From Candidatus Aenigmatarchaeota archaeon (GTDB taxonomy: Archaea > Aenigmatarchaeota > Aenigmatarchaeia > GW2011-AR5), in assembly GCA_016184005.1 (NCBI GenBank), contig JACPDL010000005.1:1-59734 (forward strand): 59,734 nucleotides of DNA. Direction: 5' to 3'. The notes beneath the pieces were generated by a model. That model ran no database searches, was not told where the DNA came from, and saw only the letters and a list, made by a program, of their open reading frames with translations. Positions 52,514-59,734 of the stretch are shown here, one piece after another (position 1 is the stretch's first letter; each line of letters starts with the position of its first letter). The position numbers and the translations under genes are program-made.

Positions 52514-52733
52514 AAACAAGTCCAGATTTCATACACTGCTACCTTTCAGCTTGCTTCTTGTAGGAATTGTAATGTTAGTTGAAGCAAGCGCAGTCCTTCT
52601 TATTTTACAGCAACTTTCACCCTTCCTTACACAAGATTCAGCAACGCTGGCATGGGGCTACACAATATTGAAACTTCTCGCTGCCATAATTGTAACTGTT
52701 TCCAGCGCCGCTATTTTTCTGAAGCACCGCTGA
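52500..52733 (+). CDS. Small membrane protein, 77 residues
   Basis: Two transmembrane segments (LLPFSLLLVGIVMLVEASAVLLIL and LAWGYTILKLLAAIIVTVSSAAIFL). It starts 14 bp before the NAC stop and its end overlaps the secD end by 23 bp in convergent orientation. No family recognised. Confidence 0.5.
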   Translation: MKKNENKSRFHTLLPFSLLLVGIVMLVEASAVLLILQQLSPFLTQDSATLAWGYTILKLLAAIIVTVSSAAIFLKHR

Positions 52734-54345
52734 CCAGCCGCTCGGCAATAACGCCAAACGCCGGCCGCGTTACCAAGACTCCTACAAGAGTTCCTATTAT
52801 CGTTGTGAGCGCAAACCCCGTAAGGAAACCGAAACCAGAAAACAGCAGTGGCAGCATGGCCGCAATTATTGTCCCGGCCGCGCCGAAAACCACAAAGAAC
52901 GCTTTCTTGAGCCTTTCTGAAAGAGTCATTTCCCTCACTTCTTTTCTCAAAACATTATCGATTATCACTATCTGGTCATTGATCCCCAGACCAATGGCAG
53001 CAATTAAACCCCCTATTGCAGGCAGATCTATAGTCGAGCCCAATCTAGCCGAAATTCCGACTATGATGAGAATCTCACTCAAAGACACGAGCATCATAGG
53101 CAGGACGATCTTTGGTTTCCTGTATCTAGCAAAAACTATCAGAAGCACGCCACCTATTGCAACAAATCCGGCAAGAACGGCGTTCTGCAAAAAATCTGCC
53201 CCGAGAGTAGGCGACACGCTGCTGAATTGAACAGTTTCTATTTTTGTGGGCAACGCGCCTGACCGCAGGATTGACTGCAGCTTTGATTTTTCAGCTATCG
53301 CTTCACTGAGACTTGGCGCGCCGCCGCTTATTGAAGGGTTTGTAACAGGAACGTCTTTGAAATTTGCAGCCACGTTCAAAGAATCGATGAAATTGTCGTC
53401 AAGATAGAAATATATCCTGGACTCTAAATACCGCTCGCCTGTACCGGGATCTATGTGCGTTTTCATGTTTTTCGCAACCCAGAAGAACCTGTTCGCAGCT
53501 TCGTTTGTTATCTGAACTTGGAAAAACCATTTGTAAAAATTGCCGACATTTTCCACCCCCGACCGTTGAGGGTCAAAAAACACTATTTTCACGTCGTTGC
53601 CTGTAAAAACCGTGGCAGTAAGGTTTATAGTGTCTGAACTTACGCTTTCCAGAGAAAACTGTATACCATCTAACTCAAACGTTTTGTCAACTTTTTTCCC
53701 GTCGACAACAAGAGAATCAGCACCGGCCTTTAATGAGTATTTTTTGCCAAGCTCGAGCTGACCTTCTGAAAAGTGCAAAATCAGCGGCATTTTTGCTTCA
53801 AATTTCCCCTCGCTTTCTATAAGGTTCCTTAGTTCTGCCTCATCCCCGCCAGCAATACTTATTTCGACAAAACCCGCACCCTGGTAATAAACAGGCCTGA
53901 AAACAGTTTCCCGGAGGCCATAGATGTTTATCCGGGTCTGAAGGGTTGATATGATTTGCTGTATAGTATCCGAATCTGATTCCTCCGGTTTCACGGTAGC
54001 TGTTATGCCGCCCTTCAAATCCAGGCCGAATTTGACATTTGATGCAGGAGGCCTCTCCACTATTATGCCTAATGTGCCGTTAGCCCGTACAAATTTAGTT
54101 CCTTTGTTTGTTTCAAACTTCACCCGGTCAAAAAAAGCTCCCTGAAAGTCTTCAGGCACCGCGTCCTTGTCGTTTATCTTAAGAATTATCTCCCCCTTCA
54201 CTATCTTATCGACTGCTGGTGAGAAGTCCTGGACAGAAGCGACAACTACGCCCCTTGGGCTCAGGTTGGGTGAGATGAATATTACCGACAGCGCAACAAA
54301 AACCAACCACACTATTACTCTTTTATTTTTCAATATGCGTTTCAT
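52711..54345 (-). CDS. secD: Protein-export membrane protein SecD
   Basis: Works with SecF to complete protein translocation. 544 residues: an N-terminal transmembrane segment (RVIVWLVFVALSVIFISP), a large extracytoplasmic P1 region (about 30-330) and five C-terminal transmembrane segments including LPAIGGLIAAIGLGINDQIVIIDNVLR, the D4-type motif. ATG 54345 overlaps the secF stop by 4 bp (ATGA), and the gene order is secF-secD. Confidence 0.95.
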   Translation of the reverse strand: MKRILKNKRVIVWLVFVALSVIFISPNLSPRGVVVASVQDFSPAVDKIVKGEIILKINDKDAVPEDFQGAFFDRVKFETNKGTKFVRANGTLGIIVERPPASNVKFGLDLKGGITATVKPEESDSDTIQQIISTLQTRINIYGLRETVFRPVYYQGAGFVEISIAGGDEAELRNLIESEGKFEAKMPLILHFSEGQLELGKKYSLKAGADSLVVDGKKVDKTFELDGIQFSLESVSSDTINLTATVFTGNDVKIVFFDPQRSGVENVGNFYKWFFQVQITNEAANRFFWVAKNMKTHIDPGTGERYLESRIYFYLDDNFIDSLNVAANFKDVPVTNPSISGGAPSLSEAIAEKSKLQSILRSGALPTKIETVQFSSVSPTLGADFLQNAVLAGFVAIGGVLLIVFARYRKPKIVLPMMLVSLSEILIIVGISARLGSTIDLPAIGGLIAAIGLGINDQIVIIDNVLRKEVREMTLSERLKKAFFVVFGAAGTIIAAMLPLLFSGFGFLTGFALTTIIGTLVGVLVTRPAFGVIAERLVSGASEK

Positions 54346-55178
54346 TTTCTTTCCGTCCAAAGTTTTAGAAAACCTGCATTTGTAAACCATGTAGCCGGCA
54401 TGTCAACCACAAGGCCTATGATCAGGACACTAGCTATTTCTTGCAGCACAATAGAACCGGAAAAGAAGTAAAGAGCCAGAAGGGCGGCAATTGCAGTAAA
54501 CGTAAGCGTAAGGCCGGTTTTTACGGCTCTTTTTATGCCTTCAATGCTGTTCTTCTGCCTGTCACCTTTCACCAGTTCTGTAGTGAGAAGTATATCAGTG
54601 TCCACCGAATAGCCTATGATTGCAAGAATGGCACCAAGAACAGGCAAAGAAAACTTAATTCCGATAACGTTGATTAGCGCTAATGTAATCATGATATCTG
54701 TAACAGCAGCCAGGATAACTGCGGCAGACGGCACGAAAGAGCGGAAAAGCAAAAACACGACAATTGACATGAGGATAAAAGCCATGATAATGGCTATTTG
54801 GGCCTGCTGGAAGAAGATTTCGGCAACCGTTGGCCCTACAAATTTAATACTAGGTTCGCCGTCAAAAACAGCCAGGCTTCTCAAATTGTCCAGCACTTCG
54901 GTTTCGTTTTTGTCGGGCTGCATTTCTATCGTGAGTGTTTTTTGTGTGCCGGAGCTCAGCCTCACGCTGGCGTAAGGAATAGCCGACCTAATTGTATTCA
55001 GATCGGCCTCTTTGACAGGCACCGTTATGATTTTGCCGCCGGCAAGCTCAACGCCGCGCTCAACAAAATAGCCAGTGGAGAAATAATTGTGCGCAAGAAT
55101 TCCGACAGCTATGATAAGGAAAGCTATCGGCAGCCACATGAGAAATTTCAAATATTTTTCATAAATTTGCCATACCAT
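54342..55178 (-). CDS. secF: Protein-export membrane protein SecF
   Basis: 278 residues, six transmembrane segments. The signature VLGAILAIIGYSVDTDILLTTEL near 195 corresponds to the conserved D-x-x motif of SecF. An N-terminal span (LMWLPIAFLIIAVGILAHNYF) is followed by the extracytoplasmic domain. ATG 55178 is preferred over an in-frame TTG two codons upstream. Confidence 0.95.
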   Translation of the reverse strand: MVWQIYEKYLKFLMWLPIAFLIIAVGILAHNYFSTGYFVERGVELAGGKIITVPVKEADLNTIRSAIPYASVRLSSGTQKTLTIEMQPDKNETEVLDNLRSLAVFDGEPSIKFVGPTVAEIFFQQAQIAIIMAFILMSIVVFLLFRSFVPSAAVILAAVTDIMITLALINVIGIKFSLPVLGAILAIIGYSVDTDILLTTELVKGDRQKNSIEGIKRAVKTGLTLTFTAIAALLALYFFSGSIVLQEIASVLIIGLVVDMPATWFTNAGFLKLWTERK

Positions 55179-55233: not shown

Positions 55234-56331
55234 ATGTACGACGTGATAATTGTTGGCGGAGGCGTAGGCGGACTCTTCCTTGCAAGCAAACTTGAAGGAC
55301 TGGATGTTCTTGTCCTGGAGAGAAACAGGAAAATCACACTCCGCGATTCAGGAATCGTTTCGAACCAGTTTAAACAAATTTTCAAAACAGAAAGCATCAT
55401 CAAAGACAAGATAACTGACATGGAACTCCTTTCTAAAAGCCAGTCGATAAACATACACACCAGAAAACCGTTTGCATACATCCTGAAAAGAGAAGAATTT
55501 ACAGGTCATTTGAGGGAATTAGCCTCGAAAAAAGCCGCAACATCTTACGAAGCGGTTACGGGCATCAGCCATACAGGCAACGGCGTAATAGTCAAGACAA
55601 ATTCCGGGGAGTACAGATGTAAGATTATTGTAGGTTCTGACGGATATAATTCCATAGCACGGCAGAGCGCCAAAATAGCAGCGCCAAAATTCGCTATGGG
55701 CATCATGGCTATAACTAACAGCAACACGGGAAATAACATAAAAGTTTTCTTCAATAAGCATTATTCTCCAGATTTCTTCTCGTGGATAATACCCCAAAAC
55801 AAAGAATACGGGATTATATCAGGTACAAGACCAAAAGAATATTTAGACTTCTTCAAGAAAAAAGAAAACCTGGGAAACGGGAAACTGTATTCGTATCCGA
55901 TTCCAGTCGGCTTCACAAAATCTTTTCACGACAACACGATATTGATCGGCGACTCATGCGGTCAAGTCAAGCCGCTGACAGGCGGCGGGATAATGTTTTC
56001 ATTGAGGGCGGCACAGCATGCAAGCAGAACAATCACAGAAGCATTTGAAAAGAACCGGTTTGACACAGCCGTGCTTAAAAAATACCAAATAGCCTGGAAA
56101 AAAGACTTTGCGTTTGAGATAAGGAAGCAACTCGTATTCAGGAATTTATACCGCTGGTTTTCGAATGCACAAATAGACTCAATGTTCAAGGACTTCAAAA
56201 ACGCCCTTGAAAAGCTGGATTATTTTGATTATGACAACTTCAGCACAGCTTGGATAAAGATGCCTAAGATACAACTTCTAAAAACAGCCATATCGCAATC
56301 AAAAACTTTGCTGCATCCAAAAATTACCTGA
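55234..56331 (+). CDS. Geranylgeranyl reductase family FAD-dependent oxidoreductase
   Basis: Saturates the isoprenoid chains of archaeal lipids or related compounds. 365 residues. FAD motif VIIVGGGVGGLFLASKL near residue 5, VGSDGYNSIARQSA near 130, and GDSCGQVKPLTGGGIMFSL near 242 characteristic of the family. It would act on membrane lipid precursors in agreement with the mevalonate genes in the window. Overlaps the next gene's end by 8 bp. Confidence 0.9.
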   Translation: MYDVIIVGGGVGGLFLASKLEGLDVLVLERNRKITLRDSGIVSNQFKQIFKTESIIKDKITDMELLSKSQSINIHTRKPFAYILKREEFTGHLRELASKKAATSYEAVTGISHTGNGVIVKTNSGEYRCKIIVGSDGYNSIARQSAKIAAPKFAMGIMAITNSNTGNNIKVFFNKHYSPDFFSWIIPQNKEYGIISGTRPKEYLDFFKKKENLGNGKLYSYPIPVGFTKSFHDNTILIGDSCGQVKPLTGGGIMFSLRAAQHASRTITEAFEKNRFDTAVLKKYQIAWKKDFAFEIRKQLVFRNLYRWFSNAQIDSMFKDFKNALEKLDYFDYDNFSTAWIKMPKIQLLKTAISQSKTLLHPKIT

Positions 56332-57292
56332 ATACATGTTTCAGGTCAAATTTCCTGCCGAGATAAATGAAAGACATCAAACCAAGAAACGCCACATACC
56401 ATATTGACAGGAACCTCGCAAGCAAAAGACCTGAAACTGCAATAGGCCCGCTAACTCCTCGTAAACCCAGAATAAAGAGCAAGGAAACTTCCATAGAGCC
56501 TATTCCTCCCGGAAGGAAGCTTATTATACCAACAAGCGTTGCCAATGCTATAAACCCTGCAAAGAGTAATGGATGGAAAGTAATCCCAACAGATTTGAAA
56601 GCAGAATAAAAGACAAAACCATCCAAAAGCCAAGCAACGAGAGTCAGGATAAAAGAAGCAAGTATCTTCCGAGTTCCTATTTTTTGTTTATAGAAAGTAT
56701 CTAAGAAATTTTCATTAATTCTGTTTACGAAAGGGAATTTTCTGAAAAAATGTAGAGTTTTAACAGCAAGTTCTTTAGTTCTGAGCACCAAAACTAAAAA
56801 GAACACTAAAAACAAAAACACGCCAAAACTTAAGACACTTAAAAAGAAAAAACTTCCTGAAATACTCAGAAACTGCAGGGCTGAGAATGCAAATACAAGT
56901 AAAACAACAATGTCTAGTATCCTTTCCCAAATGATAGATCTAAGACTTTCGGATACATTTTTTCCTGTTTTCAATTTGAGCAAGATAGCCTTTGCTGGTT
57001 CAGCAACTTTGCCGGGAGAAAAATTGCTTACAGTAACGCCCAGAAGCTGCACAGGTACGACATCGGTAAACTTTGAACCAGGCAATAAAACCTTCCATTT
57101 AGCACATCGTACCAAGATAGCAGCATTTGATAGAACAAACGCAGCAAAGATCATACTTGTGTCGCCAGTTTTAATGACAGAAACAAGCTTTACAGGATCA
57201 GCAATATACACGATGGCAATTAGTATGATAACGCTCAAAGCGCATAAAAAAACCTTTAGCATATTTTTAAACATGAAATAAATCATATTCAA
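56324..57292 (-). CDS. Flippase-like membrane protein (UPF0104/AglD C-terminal type)
   Basis: 322 residues with about seven or eight transmembrane segments. The signatures AVSIVRCAKWKVLLPG-like ILVRCAKWKVLLPG near 59, NFSPGKVAEPAKAILL near 90 and FLPGGIGSMEVSLLFI near 255 are those of the UPF0104 family, which includes lysylphosphatidylglycerol synthase membrane domains and AglD-like proteins. Its neighbourhood with the oligosaccharyltransferase suggests a role in lipid-linked sugar handling. This is context, not proof. Confidence 0.8.
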   Translation of the reverse strand: MNMIYFMFKNMLKVFLCALSVIILIAIVYIADPVKLVSVIKTGDTSMIFAAFVLSNAAILVRCAKWKVLLPGSKFTDVVPVQLLGVTVSNFSPGKVAEPAKAILLKLKTGKNVSESLRSIIWERILDIVVLLVFAFSALQFLSISGSFFFLSVLSFGVFLFLVFFLVLVLRTKELAVKTLHFFRKFPFVNRINENFLDTFYKQKIGTRKILASFILTLVAWLLDGFVFYSAFKSVGITFHPLLFAGFIALATLVGIISFLPGGIGSMEVSLLFILGLRGVSGPIAVSGLLLARFLSIWYVAFLGLMSFIYLGRKFDLKHVFR

Positions 57293-57366: not shown

Positions 57367-58530
57367 ATGAGAATAAACGCAATTAAAAACTATTGGCCCG
57401 TAATAGCAATATTTTTGATTATCCTGCTGGGTGTATCCGTCAGGGTTATGGACTACAAATGGCCCTATCTCAGAAACATAGACTCCTACAACTTTTACAG
57501 CGAAATGGAGAATATCGTTCAGAACAACGGGAAACTCTCGACAACGGACGAGCTAAAGCTGGCGCCGTACGGCTCTGGCAGAGGCGGGAACATCTTTGTA
57601 TACCTGGGATCTTATTCTTACATGTTTTTCAGAATTTTTGCACCTACAGTCCAGCTCTGGCAATTTTTGATATGGTTTCCGGCTGTTTTAGCTTCGTTGA
57701 TGGCCATACCGATGTATTTTATAGGAAAAATACTTTACGACAGGAAAGCCGGAGTGCTTGCGGCCTTCTTCATCATTTTTGATATACCGGTTATTACAAG
57801 AACCCTGGGAGGAGACCCTGATAACGACGCAATAGTACTTTTAATGCCCCTGATTTTGCTTACGGCATTTTTGATCACCTACAAGCATATACAATCGCAT
57901 GGTTTCAACAAGAAAGCCGGCATTTACTCGGCAATTACTGGAACATTTTTTGCCGCCTGGATATTCAGCTGGGGCGGCTTCTGGTACATGGCGTGGCTGA
58001 TGGTCGGCTTTATTGCTCTAGTTACAATAACAAAACTGATTTCTTACAGGAATGTCAAAAAAACTTTCCATGAAATGAGAAAATACTTCATAAGCTTATT
58101 AGTAATTTTTTCCGTTGCGTTCCTCATAGTCATGCCGCAGTTTGGCCCGGTAATAATATCAGCCACCATAACAGGACCATTTCAATTCGGCGACATCAAA
58201 GCCGAGACCGGCGAGTTCCCGAACGTTTATGTGTCTGTTGCAGAGCTGCAGGCACCATCAGGTCCGCAAGAAATTATACAGAGAACAGGACCGTCATTCT
58301 TTGTCATGATACTGTCCCTCGGGTATTTGTTCTATTCTTTTGCAAAAAAAAGGCACCATTCGGATACAATAATTCTTCTTGCAATATGGTTCGTGGGACC
58401 ATTTATAGCAACGATCGTTGCAGTAAGATTTTCCATACTGTTTTCGGCACCTATAGCCGTAGGATCTGCAATTTTGTTTTCAAAAATAACGCGCCTGATA
58501 ACGGGCGAAGATGCAAAATTCGAGGATTGA
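57367..58530 (+). CDS. STT3/AglB oligosaccharyltransferase, membrane part only
   Basis: N-glycosylation catalytic subunit. 387 residues with about 11 or 12 transmembrane segments. First acidic motif NIDSYNF near 37, second GGDPDNDAIVLL near 150 and the SVSE-type loop VYVSVAELQAP near 290, all needed for catalysis. The arginine VAVRFSILFSAP near 357 is the usual RY/RF site. The protein stops after the last of these spans without the soluble WWDYG domain, which appears as a separate gene at 59179. The unit is interrupted by a methyltransferase gene. Confidence 0.88.
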   Translation: MRINAIKNYWPVIAIFLIILLGVSVRVMDYKWPYLRNIDSYNFYSEMENIVQNNGKLSTTDELKLAPYGSGRGGNIFVYLGSYSYMFFRIFAPTVQLWQFLIWFPAVLASLMAIPMYFIGKILYDRKAGVLAAFFIIFDIPVITRTLGGDPDNDAIVLLMPLILLTAFLITYKHIQSHGFNKKAGIYSAITGTFFAAWIFSWGGFWYMAWLMVGFIALVTITKLISYRNVKKTFHEMRKYFISLLVIFSVAFLIVMPQFGPVIISATITGPFQFGDIKAETGEFPNVYVSVAELQAPSGPQEIIQRTGPSFFVMILSLGYLFYSFAKKRHHSDTIILLAIWFVGPFIATIVAVRFSILFSAPIAVGSAILFSKITRLITGEDAKFED

Positions 58531-58534
58531 TTTT

Positions 58535-59173
58535 ATGATAAAAAGACTCCGATATTCCGAAAAACAAGCAAAAAAATGGTACGATAAAGTATATCTTCAC
58601 GGAGGCTACAAATCGGCCGATCCCAGATATGACGACAAAATGCTAGATCAACTTGGGGTACCTACAGACATGAACTTGAATCTCCTAGATATAGCTTGCG
58701 GAAACGGGTTCCTTCTTCATGCAGCAGAAAAGAGAACCAGAACGTTTGGGATGGATATAAGTGAAAACGCAGTAAAAAATGCAAAATTAAGGGCGAAAAG
58801 AACCCTATTTTCTTGCGGATCTGCAGAAAAACTGCCGTTTCCTGACAAATTTTTTGATTTTGTTACGTGCTTGGGCAGCATGGAGCATTTCATTAACGTA
58901 GATACGGCTTTAACGGAAATAAAACGCGTCCTGGTTGACGGTGGCAAAGCCAACCTCCACGTGCCGAATTCGCTTTACCTTGTTCATAAGCTTCTCAGGG
59001 TTGATACACAAGGACAGCCCAACGAAAGACTTGCAACAGAAGCAGAATGGAGAGAAATAATAGAAAAGCATTTGACTATTGAAAAAGTCCACAAATACAA
59101 TACCCGGCCGTATCTTGCCTGGATACCAAAGAAATACTGCTGTCATTTCACATTCATTTGCAGGAAGGAGTAA
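58535..59173 (+). CDS. SAM-dependent methyltransferase, class I
   Basis: 212 residues. SAM motif I LLDIACGNGFLLHA near 51, motif II GMDISENAVKNA near 73, post-I CGSAEKLPFPDKFFDFVTCLGSMEH near 91. UbiE/Methyltransf_11 type; substrate unknown. ATG 58535 lies 4 bp after the STT3-N stop and GAGG precedes it. Its place between the two halves of the oligosaccharyltransferase is unusual; methylated glycans are known on archaeal surfaces, so a glycan-methylating role is plausible. Confidence 0.88.
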   Translation: MIKRLRYSEKQAKKWYDKVYLHGGYKSADPRYDDKMLDQLGVPTDMNLNLLDIACGNGFLLHAAEKRTRTFGMDISENAVKNAKLRAKRTLFSCGSAEKLPFPDKFFDFVTCLGSMEHFINVDTALTEIKRVLVDGGKANLHVPNSLYLVHKLLRVDTQGQPNERLATEAEWREIIEKHLTIEKVHKYNTRPYLAWIPKKYCCHFTFICRKE

Positions 59174-59178
59174 TTAAC

Positions 59179-59734
59179 ATGAAAGTTGAAAAAAGAAAAA
59201 TAGCCCTTGTTGTTTTTCTAGCAGTCATAATTGTATATTCAAATGCACTTTACTATAGACCGGCATCTGATATTGCAAAATATTCTGGCACAGTATTGAC
59301 AGATAATTGGTGGACAGCACTTAACTGGATAAGGAACAATACAGCCGAATGCTCTGTGGTGGCAACATATTGGGACCCTGGACATTTCATAACAGGAATT
59401 GCAAAAAGATCGGTGGTGTTTGACGGCGCCACACAGGGTGCAACCATAACTATCGAGGCTGACGGCAAGAATATGACCAGATCAAGAATCCAGGACATAG
59501 CCACGACGCTTTTTACAGACAACGAGACGCAGGCAGTTGAACTGCTAAAGGCTTATCGCAAGCCCAACTGCAACGAATTTTATTACATTGCCTCCTCAGA
59601 CCTGCTAGGCAAAAGCCAGTGGTGGACATATTTCGCTACATGGGATCCTGCGGGCGGCAAGGATTGCCCATTCATAAGCTCTGACAAAGGCTACTGCTAT
59701 GTATATTCAACGCTAAGCCTGTCTAGAGCAACAC
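59179..59734 (+). CDS. STT3/AglB C-terminal half as a separate gene (partial, window edge)
   Basis: Runs off the window at codon 185. One N-terminal transmembrane segment (KIALVVFLAVIIVYSNALYY) matches the position of the last STT3 span. The soluble part has NWWTALNWIRNNT, then ATYWDPGHFITGIAKRSVVFDGAT, where YWDPG stands at the place of the catalytic WWDYG motif. It is preceded by AGGAAGGAG. With the upstream membrane gene it would restore a complete enzyme. Confidence 0.85.
   Translation, partial: MKVEKRKIALVVFLAVIIVYSNALYYRPASDIAKYSGTVLTDNWWTALNWIRNNTAECSVVATYWDPGHFITGIAKRSVVFDGATQGATITIEADGKNMTRSRIQDIATTLFTDNETQAVELLKAYRKPNCNEFYYIASSDLLGKSQWWTYFATWDPAGGKDCPFISSDKGYCYVYSTLSLSRAT

Follow-up and report, generated by a model that had tools for sequence, protein, structure and literature searches.

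Organization of the locus

The window, by which we mean the whole 59,734-bp stretch of DNA analysed here, is one entire contig (C1) of genome G000, a 919-kb assembly in five contigs that is 94% complete. The contig ends in three closely packed genes: STT3N, encoding the transmembrane half of STT3/AglB; a methyltransferase gene; and STT3C, which opens with the last transmembrane helix and runs on into the outer catalytic domain. Spacers of 4 nt (STT3N to methyltransferase) and 5 nt (methyltransferase to STT3C) separate them, and the STT3N stop lies exactly 648 bp from the STT3C start. The open reading frame coordinates, this distance and the motif positions of the initial annotation all proved correct on re-reading.

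STT3N (57367..58530, + strand; 387 aa) carries TM1 to TM12 and matches PF02516 (E=6e-23) across profile positions 24-373 of 405, exceeding the curated cut-off; against A. fulgidus AglB (3waj) it scores E=1e-10. The EL1 acidic motif N-I-D39-S-Y (57475..57489, +) marks the region of the first catalytic aspartate, and its D is present in every complete alignment row, from split and fused relatives alike. The EL2 acidic motif GGDPDND (residues 148-154; 57808..57828, +), kept in split relatives, aligns with the D/DNE region of AglB and STT3A. SVAEL in EL5 (residues 290-294; 58234..58248, +) is the equivalent of TIXE/SVSE and reads S-[VI]-x-E in all split rows. Between TM11 and TM12, Arg354 of 'AVRF' (58426..58428, +) is an R in all alignment rows and aligns with the NRF arginine of A. 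fulgidus AglB. The membrane part had been described as ending after an SVSE-type loop and a last arginine, and SVAE (290-293) and R354 are indeed found there; the C terminus is a cytosolic tail, KITRLITGEDAKFED. A hydropathy scan alone leaves some N-half helices unseparated, and AlphaFold2 predictions from three-row alignments gave a pLDDT of 38 for STT3N and 44 for the STT3C of a congener. Membership in the archaeosortase-associated STT3 family (TIGR04154) was considered and rejected: STT3N (E=6e-25, 87.8 bits) and STT3C (23.3 bits) both fall far under the curated cut-off of 450 bits.

STT3C (59179..59734, +) encodes TM13 followed by the first part of the outer catalytic domain. Its 185 aa are cut short by the contig end; the full-length protein of the congener has 306 aa (L034/L036). 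A probable Shine-Dalgarno stretch, read by eye around GGAAGGAG, lies ahead of its start (59161..59173, +). The TM13 and YWDPG region aligns to human STT3A/STT3B (phmmer E=4.5e-5), and STT3C of the window is also matched by the C-half family profile, bearing out the earlier assignment of the last transmembrane helix and a WWDYG-type domain to a separate gene. YWDPG (59368..59382, +), the equivalent of WWDYG in the sequon Ser/Thr pocket, is embedded in ATYWDPGH throughout the order's split proteins. Relative to the canonical motif, the WD and the G are kept, and are invariant across 21 split C halves, while the first W is replaced by Y and the Y by P. This spelling is clade-wide, and fused relatives with YWDPG or WWDPG exist (for example L060 and L065). 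From sequence alignment alone, the invariant D141 and K145 (SSDLLGK/SSDLIGK) are candidates for the DK/MI motif.

The extreme end of another contig of this genome, C5, encodes a 97-aa STT3C tail with 88.5% DNA identity to the congener (L120 11832-12125, - strand). Because the missing part of STT3C sits at the C5 end, the C1/C5 contig break probably falls within the STT3C gene. The C5 tail also has an altered C terminus, and its downstream genes are unlike those of the congener; it may stem from a recent rearrangement or be another, incomplete copy of the gene.

The gene between the halves encodes a class I SAM methyltransferase of 212 aa (58535..59173, +), for which an alternative start at 58511 would give 220 aa. 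It matches Methyltransf_11 (PF08241; E=2e-21) with 76.6 bits against a cut-off of 21.2. A search for a more specific methyltransferase family returned only many generic SAM methyltransferase models, far under their cut-offs.

Upstream of STT3N and divergent from it lies a flippase-like LPG_synthase_TM protein (56324..57286, -; PF03706 E=3e-38, TIGR00374 E=1e-31), with a 43% identical homolog in the same place in the sister genus (G004). The adjacent geranylgeranyl-reductase-family enzyme (55234..56331, +; TIGR02032 E=3e-40, slightly under cut-off) has a 50% identical syntenic homolog in G004; saturation of the lipid carrier or of a membrane lipid is a possible role. The gene order geranylgeranyl-reductase family, flippase-like protein, STT3N, STT3C, GT1 and Wzx-type flippase is common to the sister genus (G004). 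SecD- and SecF-like genes, recognised by eye at positions 52711-55178 of the window, adjoin the glycosylation genes, and their synteny extends to the sister genus.

Assembly, selection and copy number

The same arrangement is present in a second assembly. The closest named relative is the congener, a Candidatus Aenigmatarchaeota MAG (genome G001), whose contig JAGVVX010000021.1 (L034) is 95.7% identical to the window over 3,341 bp and continues without a gap through all three genes; the contig ends of the two differ. Between window and congener, omega (Nei-Gojobori) is 0.085 for STT3N, 0.035 for the methyltransferase and 0.118 for STT3C; purifying selection acts on all three. In the window genome PF02516 matched no second gene, at E up to 10. 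Near-complete relatives hold one N half and one C half each, and nearly all genomes with one half possess the other.

Single-chain STT3-like proteins of about 450 aa, seen in four other genomes (G015, G010, G006 and G013), were considered as enzymes that might cover for the split one and rejected, none being present in the window genome at the threshold used. In those genomes, paired STT3-like membrane proteins of about 440-490 aa are encoded at L175 660-2000 (-) and 2036-3397 (+) in G015, and on C37 of G010, C61 of G006 and C57 of G013. They carry 'AQFLEGHW' or 'SDWQWGHW' at the WWDYG position and are possibly a separate mini GT-C family.

Distribution of the split

In 27 genomes of the window's order (families f1-f6), the N and C halves are two open reading frames on one contig. 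Judged by plausible starts, the C half begins between -14 and +103 nt from the N stop; two larger apparent overlaps (L053, L058) reflect a start codon picked too far upstream. The 648-nt insert occurs only in the two genomes of genus g1, and in the remaining split genomes of the order the halves abut. Across 59 genomes, the window's included, N-half matches in the order are short open reading frames, as against 600-850 aa in other families. One member of the order, G030, encodes a fused protein of 816 aa. When 122 genomes of the class were searched with the C-half profile, split-length frames appeared throughout the order, family f9 and most of f11, whereas almost every other family showed long single frames; a phylum-level search added no further class. 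The initial annotation had proposed looking for the same split in relatives, and it is there: the split is old and widespread, family- and order-wide, and extends well beyond the window.

Broken genes of another kind were also seen. STT3N lies in two overlapping frames in L047 (G018) and L059 (G020), probably through sequencing frameshifts. In L139 (G060, family f15), STT3 is broken in its membrane part (277 + 384 aa), away from the TM12-TM13 loop; this break is probably a frameshift and was left out of the split count.

Family f11 contains both linked and unlinked halves. In G125, G126 and G150 (genus g29), the gene order is GTPase, STT3N, STT3C. In their sisters G042, G048 and G151, STT3C comes immediately after the GTPase gene, with STT3N elsewhere. 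The STT3C of a fourth sister, G152, is placed at a contig edge that cuts off the GTPase side, again with STT3N elsewhere. STT3N adjoins nucleotide-sugar genes, named by eye, in G048 and G151, and in G151 both halves lie well inside contigs of 38 and 67 kb. These four genomes retain both halves though they are unlinked.

Further incomplete copies of STT3N's TM12 end, near the main gene or apart from it, were also observed in G151 (L164, on C22, near 60953-61144 and 62541-62663) and in G152 (C24:139-285 and C81:25525-25599), together with a partial STT3C copy in G152 (C13:8260-8538). They look like duplication remnants from relocation.

Cut site and evolutionary history

AglB has a topology of 13 helices (PMC8342417). 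STT3N ends with the arginine after TM11 and a hydrophobic TM12, and STT3C opens with a lysine-rich stretch followed by TM13. Because both tails at the junction are positively charged, the cut is placed in the cytosolic TM12-TM13 loop, and it is always in this loop. Many split C halves contain an extra two-helix hairpin before TM13 (L038, L041, L045, L054). The fused G030 protein (L060) has such a hairpin between TM12 and TM13, as is found at the STT3C start in split f3 relatives.

A maximum-likelihood tree built from 47 proteins, either concatenated or fused, requires at least four changes between split and fused forms, all forced by well-supported branches. G030 is nested among the split proteins (p-AU 0.045 for its exclusion), and this position, together with the retained hairpin, indicates a likely re-fusion. 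Family f9 groups with the fused families, and forcing it into the main split clade is rejected (p-AU 0.014). Since f9 thus falls outside that clade, the gene was likely split at this loop on two or more occasions, a reading to be taken with caution in view of the long f9 branch. For G035 (f11), the comparison of re-fusion with separate splits in its sisters gives p-AU 0.48.

The methyltransferase between the halves

The methyltransferase (METHYLTRANSFERASE) lies between the halves in genus g1 only; in the sister genus (G004) the N and C halves are 10 nt apart. Its sole close homolog (53% identical) is also in G004, in a cluster with an epimerase, a GT2 and a GT1, beside a second epimerase. In the orthologous G001 cluster (71, 51, 58 and 64% identity), the GT1 and second epimerase genes overlap by 9 nt, without a methyltransferase. 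The congener's GT1 cluster has weak paralogs only (31%) in the window genome, and the comparison of the glycosyltransferase clusters is one of G001 with G004 only. The homolog in the G004 cluster and its absence from the G001 cluster mean that the methyltransferase gene has moved between glycan gene sets, in one direction or the other.

The initial annotation had given weight to the methyltransferase between the halves. This emphasis finds no support: the split is far older, and the halves of nearly all relatives abut with nothing between them. The methyltransferase is a genus-level insertion, a late passenger separate from the split; an enzyme that was in two parts beforehand loses nothing by an insertion at its cytosolic junction. 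Judging by the gene neighbourhood, the enzyme probably tailors the glycan.

Discussion

Taken together, the genes very probably encode a genuine two-polypeptide oligosaccharyltransferase. All split proteins keep both acidic motifs, the SVAE-type EL5, the arginine, the WD-x-G and the conserved tail, and we infer from these sequences that the chains assemble and are catalytically active. The two-gene STT3/AglB that the initial annotation had read from a single contig now stands on a second assembly, 27 genomes of the order, purifying selection and the unlinked halves of four genomes.

We propose that an ancestral AglB/STT3 gene was severed at the cytosolic TM12-TM13 loop. The metal-binding acidic residues, the site for the lipid-linked glycan and the EL5 loop would all belong to the N chain (TM1-12). 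The C chain would enter the membrane through TM13, used as a signal anchor of N-in/C-out orientation, and would display the outer domain, which bears the YWDPG sequon pocket. The chains would then meet in the membrane, TM13 packing on TM1-12, and so restore the usual active site between the two domains, with co-translation from abutting genes normally supplying equal amounts of the two. In genus g1, the methyltransferase gene would have been inserted into the operon at this harmless cytosolic junction, and its product, like AglP in Haloferax, most likely adds a methyl group to one of the sugars of the lipid-linked glycan without being part of the transferase.

Several other explanations were weighed against this two-chain enzyme. 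The arrangement could be an assembly chimera or a local rearrangement of an intact stt3, and STT3C does lie at a contig end, the weakest zone of assemblies. The congener, however, has the same three genes between different contig ends and with no gap, and the two-ORF split recurs in the 27 order genomes, in f9 and in most of f11; these observations exclude the assembly error that the initial annotation had named as a possible undoing, and the chance of a chimera is vanishingly small. Nor do the genes resemble a decaying pair beside a complete stt3 that does the work. No such gene was found among the PF02516 matches of the window genome, where even E up to 10 yields a single match, and in near-complete relatives one N and one C half are all there is; the omega values of both halves are low (0.085 and 0.118) and the motifs are kept over deep divergence. 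A missed copy is formally possible in a genome that is 94% complete, yet decay is highly improbable. About as improbable is the production of one chain from two open reading frames by programmed frameshifting, stop read-through or protein trans-splicing. It is true that the frames abut or overlap by a few bases in many relatives, but in the window they are separated by a methyltransferase gene of 212 codons that has a start and a stop of its own. The halves of four f11 genomes are on different contigs, deep inside both in G151, and because they are unlinked, read-through and frameshifting are excluded as a general route to one chain. No intein-like sequence or extension was seen by eye at either junction.

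The same separability, with halves unlinked in four genomes, might suggest that they have parted functionally, the N half serving as a stand-alone GT-C transferase and the C half as a sequon-binding or adhesive surface protein. The motifs kept in both halves make sense only together, the likely re-fusion in G030 implies that the products still act as one unit, and nearly every genome with one half has the other; a parting of functions is very unlikely. The methyltransferase might instead work together with the split enzyme or regulate it, with its insertion as the functional point of the arrangement. The tight operon with its 4- and 5-nt spacers, the strong purifying selection on the methyltransferase and an insertion on the cytosolic side of the junction all speak for this. 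Against it, the gene occurs there in one genus only (two genomes), some 25 relatives have nothing between the halves, and the sole close homolog sits in a glycosyltransferase cluster; we regard a partnership as unlikely. It is quite improbable, too, that the sequon-reading C chain, being made separately and in some genomes encoded at a separate place, is set or exchanged independently of the glycan-binding chain and that the g1 methyltransferase, as a co-translated cytosolic protein at the TM12/TM13 junction, couples glycan methylation to transfer. Regulation via an exposed catalytic interface, as the initial annotation had envisaged, is speculation.

A lineage-wide two-chain oligosaccharyltransferase offers a natural cut site in the TM12-TM13 loop and a ready system in which communication between the membrane and outer domains could be studied by mixing halves, titrating one against the other or crosslinking the interface. 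It also tells annotators why an STT3 gene that looks 'truncated' in one of these genomes is not to be labelled as a fragment. The lineage is, besides, a clear example of how a polytopic membrane enzyme was split and, in one case, likely joined again.

Comparison with known systems

The archaeal oligosaccharyltransferase is stated to be single-subunit (PMC8342417). We found no report of a split STT3/AglB in the open-access literature. To our knowledge, all archaea examined to date have AglB/STT3 as one polypeptide. The enzyme described here is a known one, AglB; the surprising part is its ancient, repeatedly evolved two-chain form.

A. fulgidus AglB (PDB 3waj, 5gmy and 7e9s) contains the same elements in the same order: the STT3 membrane domain as judged by sequence, two acidic motifs, the EL5 SVAE, the TM11-TM12 arginine and the WWDYG-type outer domain. 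AglB is one chain, whereas here two genes encode TM1-12 and TM13 with the outer domain, and the motif is YWDPG. The closest relatives of both halves are the fused AglB proteins of other Aenigmatarchaeota families (for example L068, L070 and L072), which share the same (Y/W)WDPG type but, unlike the split halves, are single open reading frames of about 600-850 aa. The eukaryotic oligosaccharyltransferase, with STT3 and accessory subunits, is likewise a multi-protein enzyme; its STT3 is unbroken, whereas here the catalytic subunit itself is divided. AglP is the N-glycan methyltransferase of Haloferax volcanii. It serves as an analogy only for the g1 methyltransferase, being SAM-dependent and within an N-glycosylation gene set, and is likened to it by role. 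The split genes of Nanoarchaeum equitans, also of the DPANN, likewise encode one enzyme in two genes in an archaeon with a reduced genome. Unlike these, the split STT3/AglB is a polytopic membrane enzyme whose division, at a cytosolic loop, is order-wide, with repeated fission and likely re-fusion.
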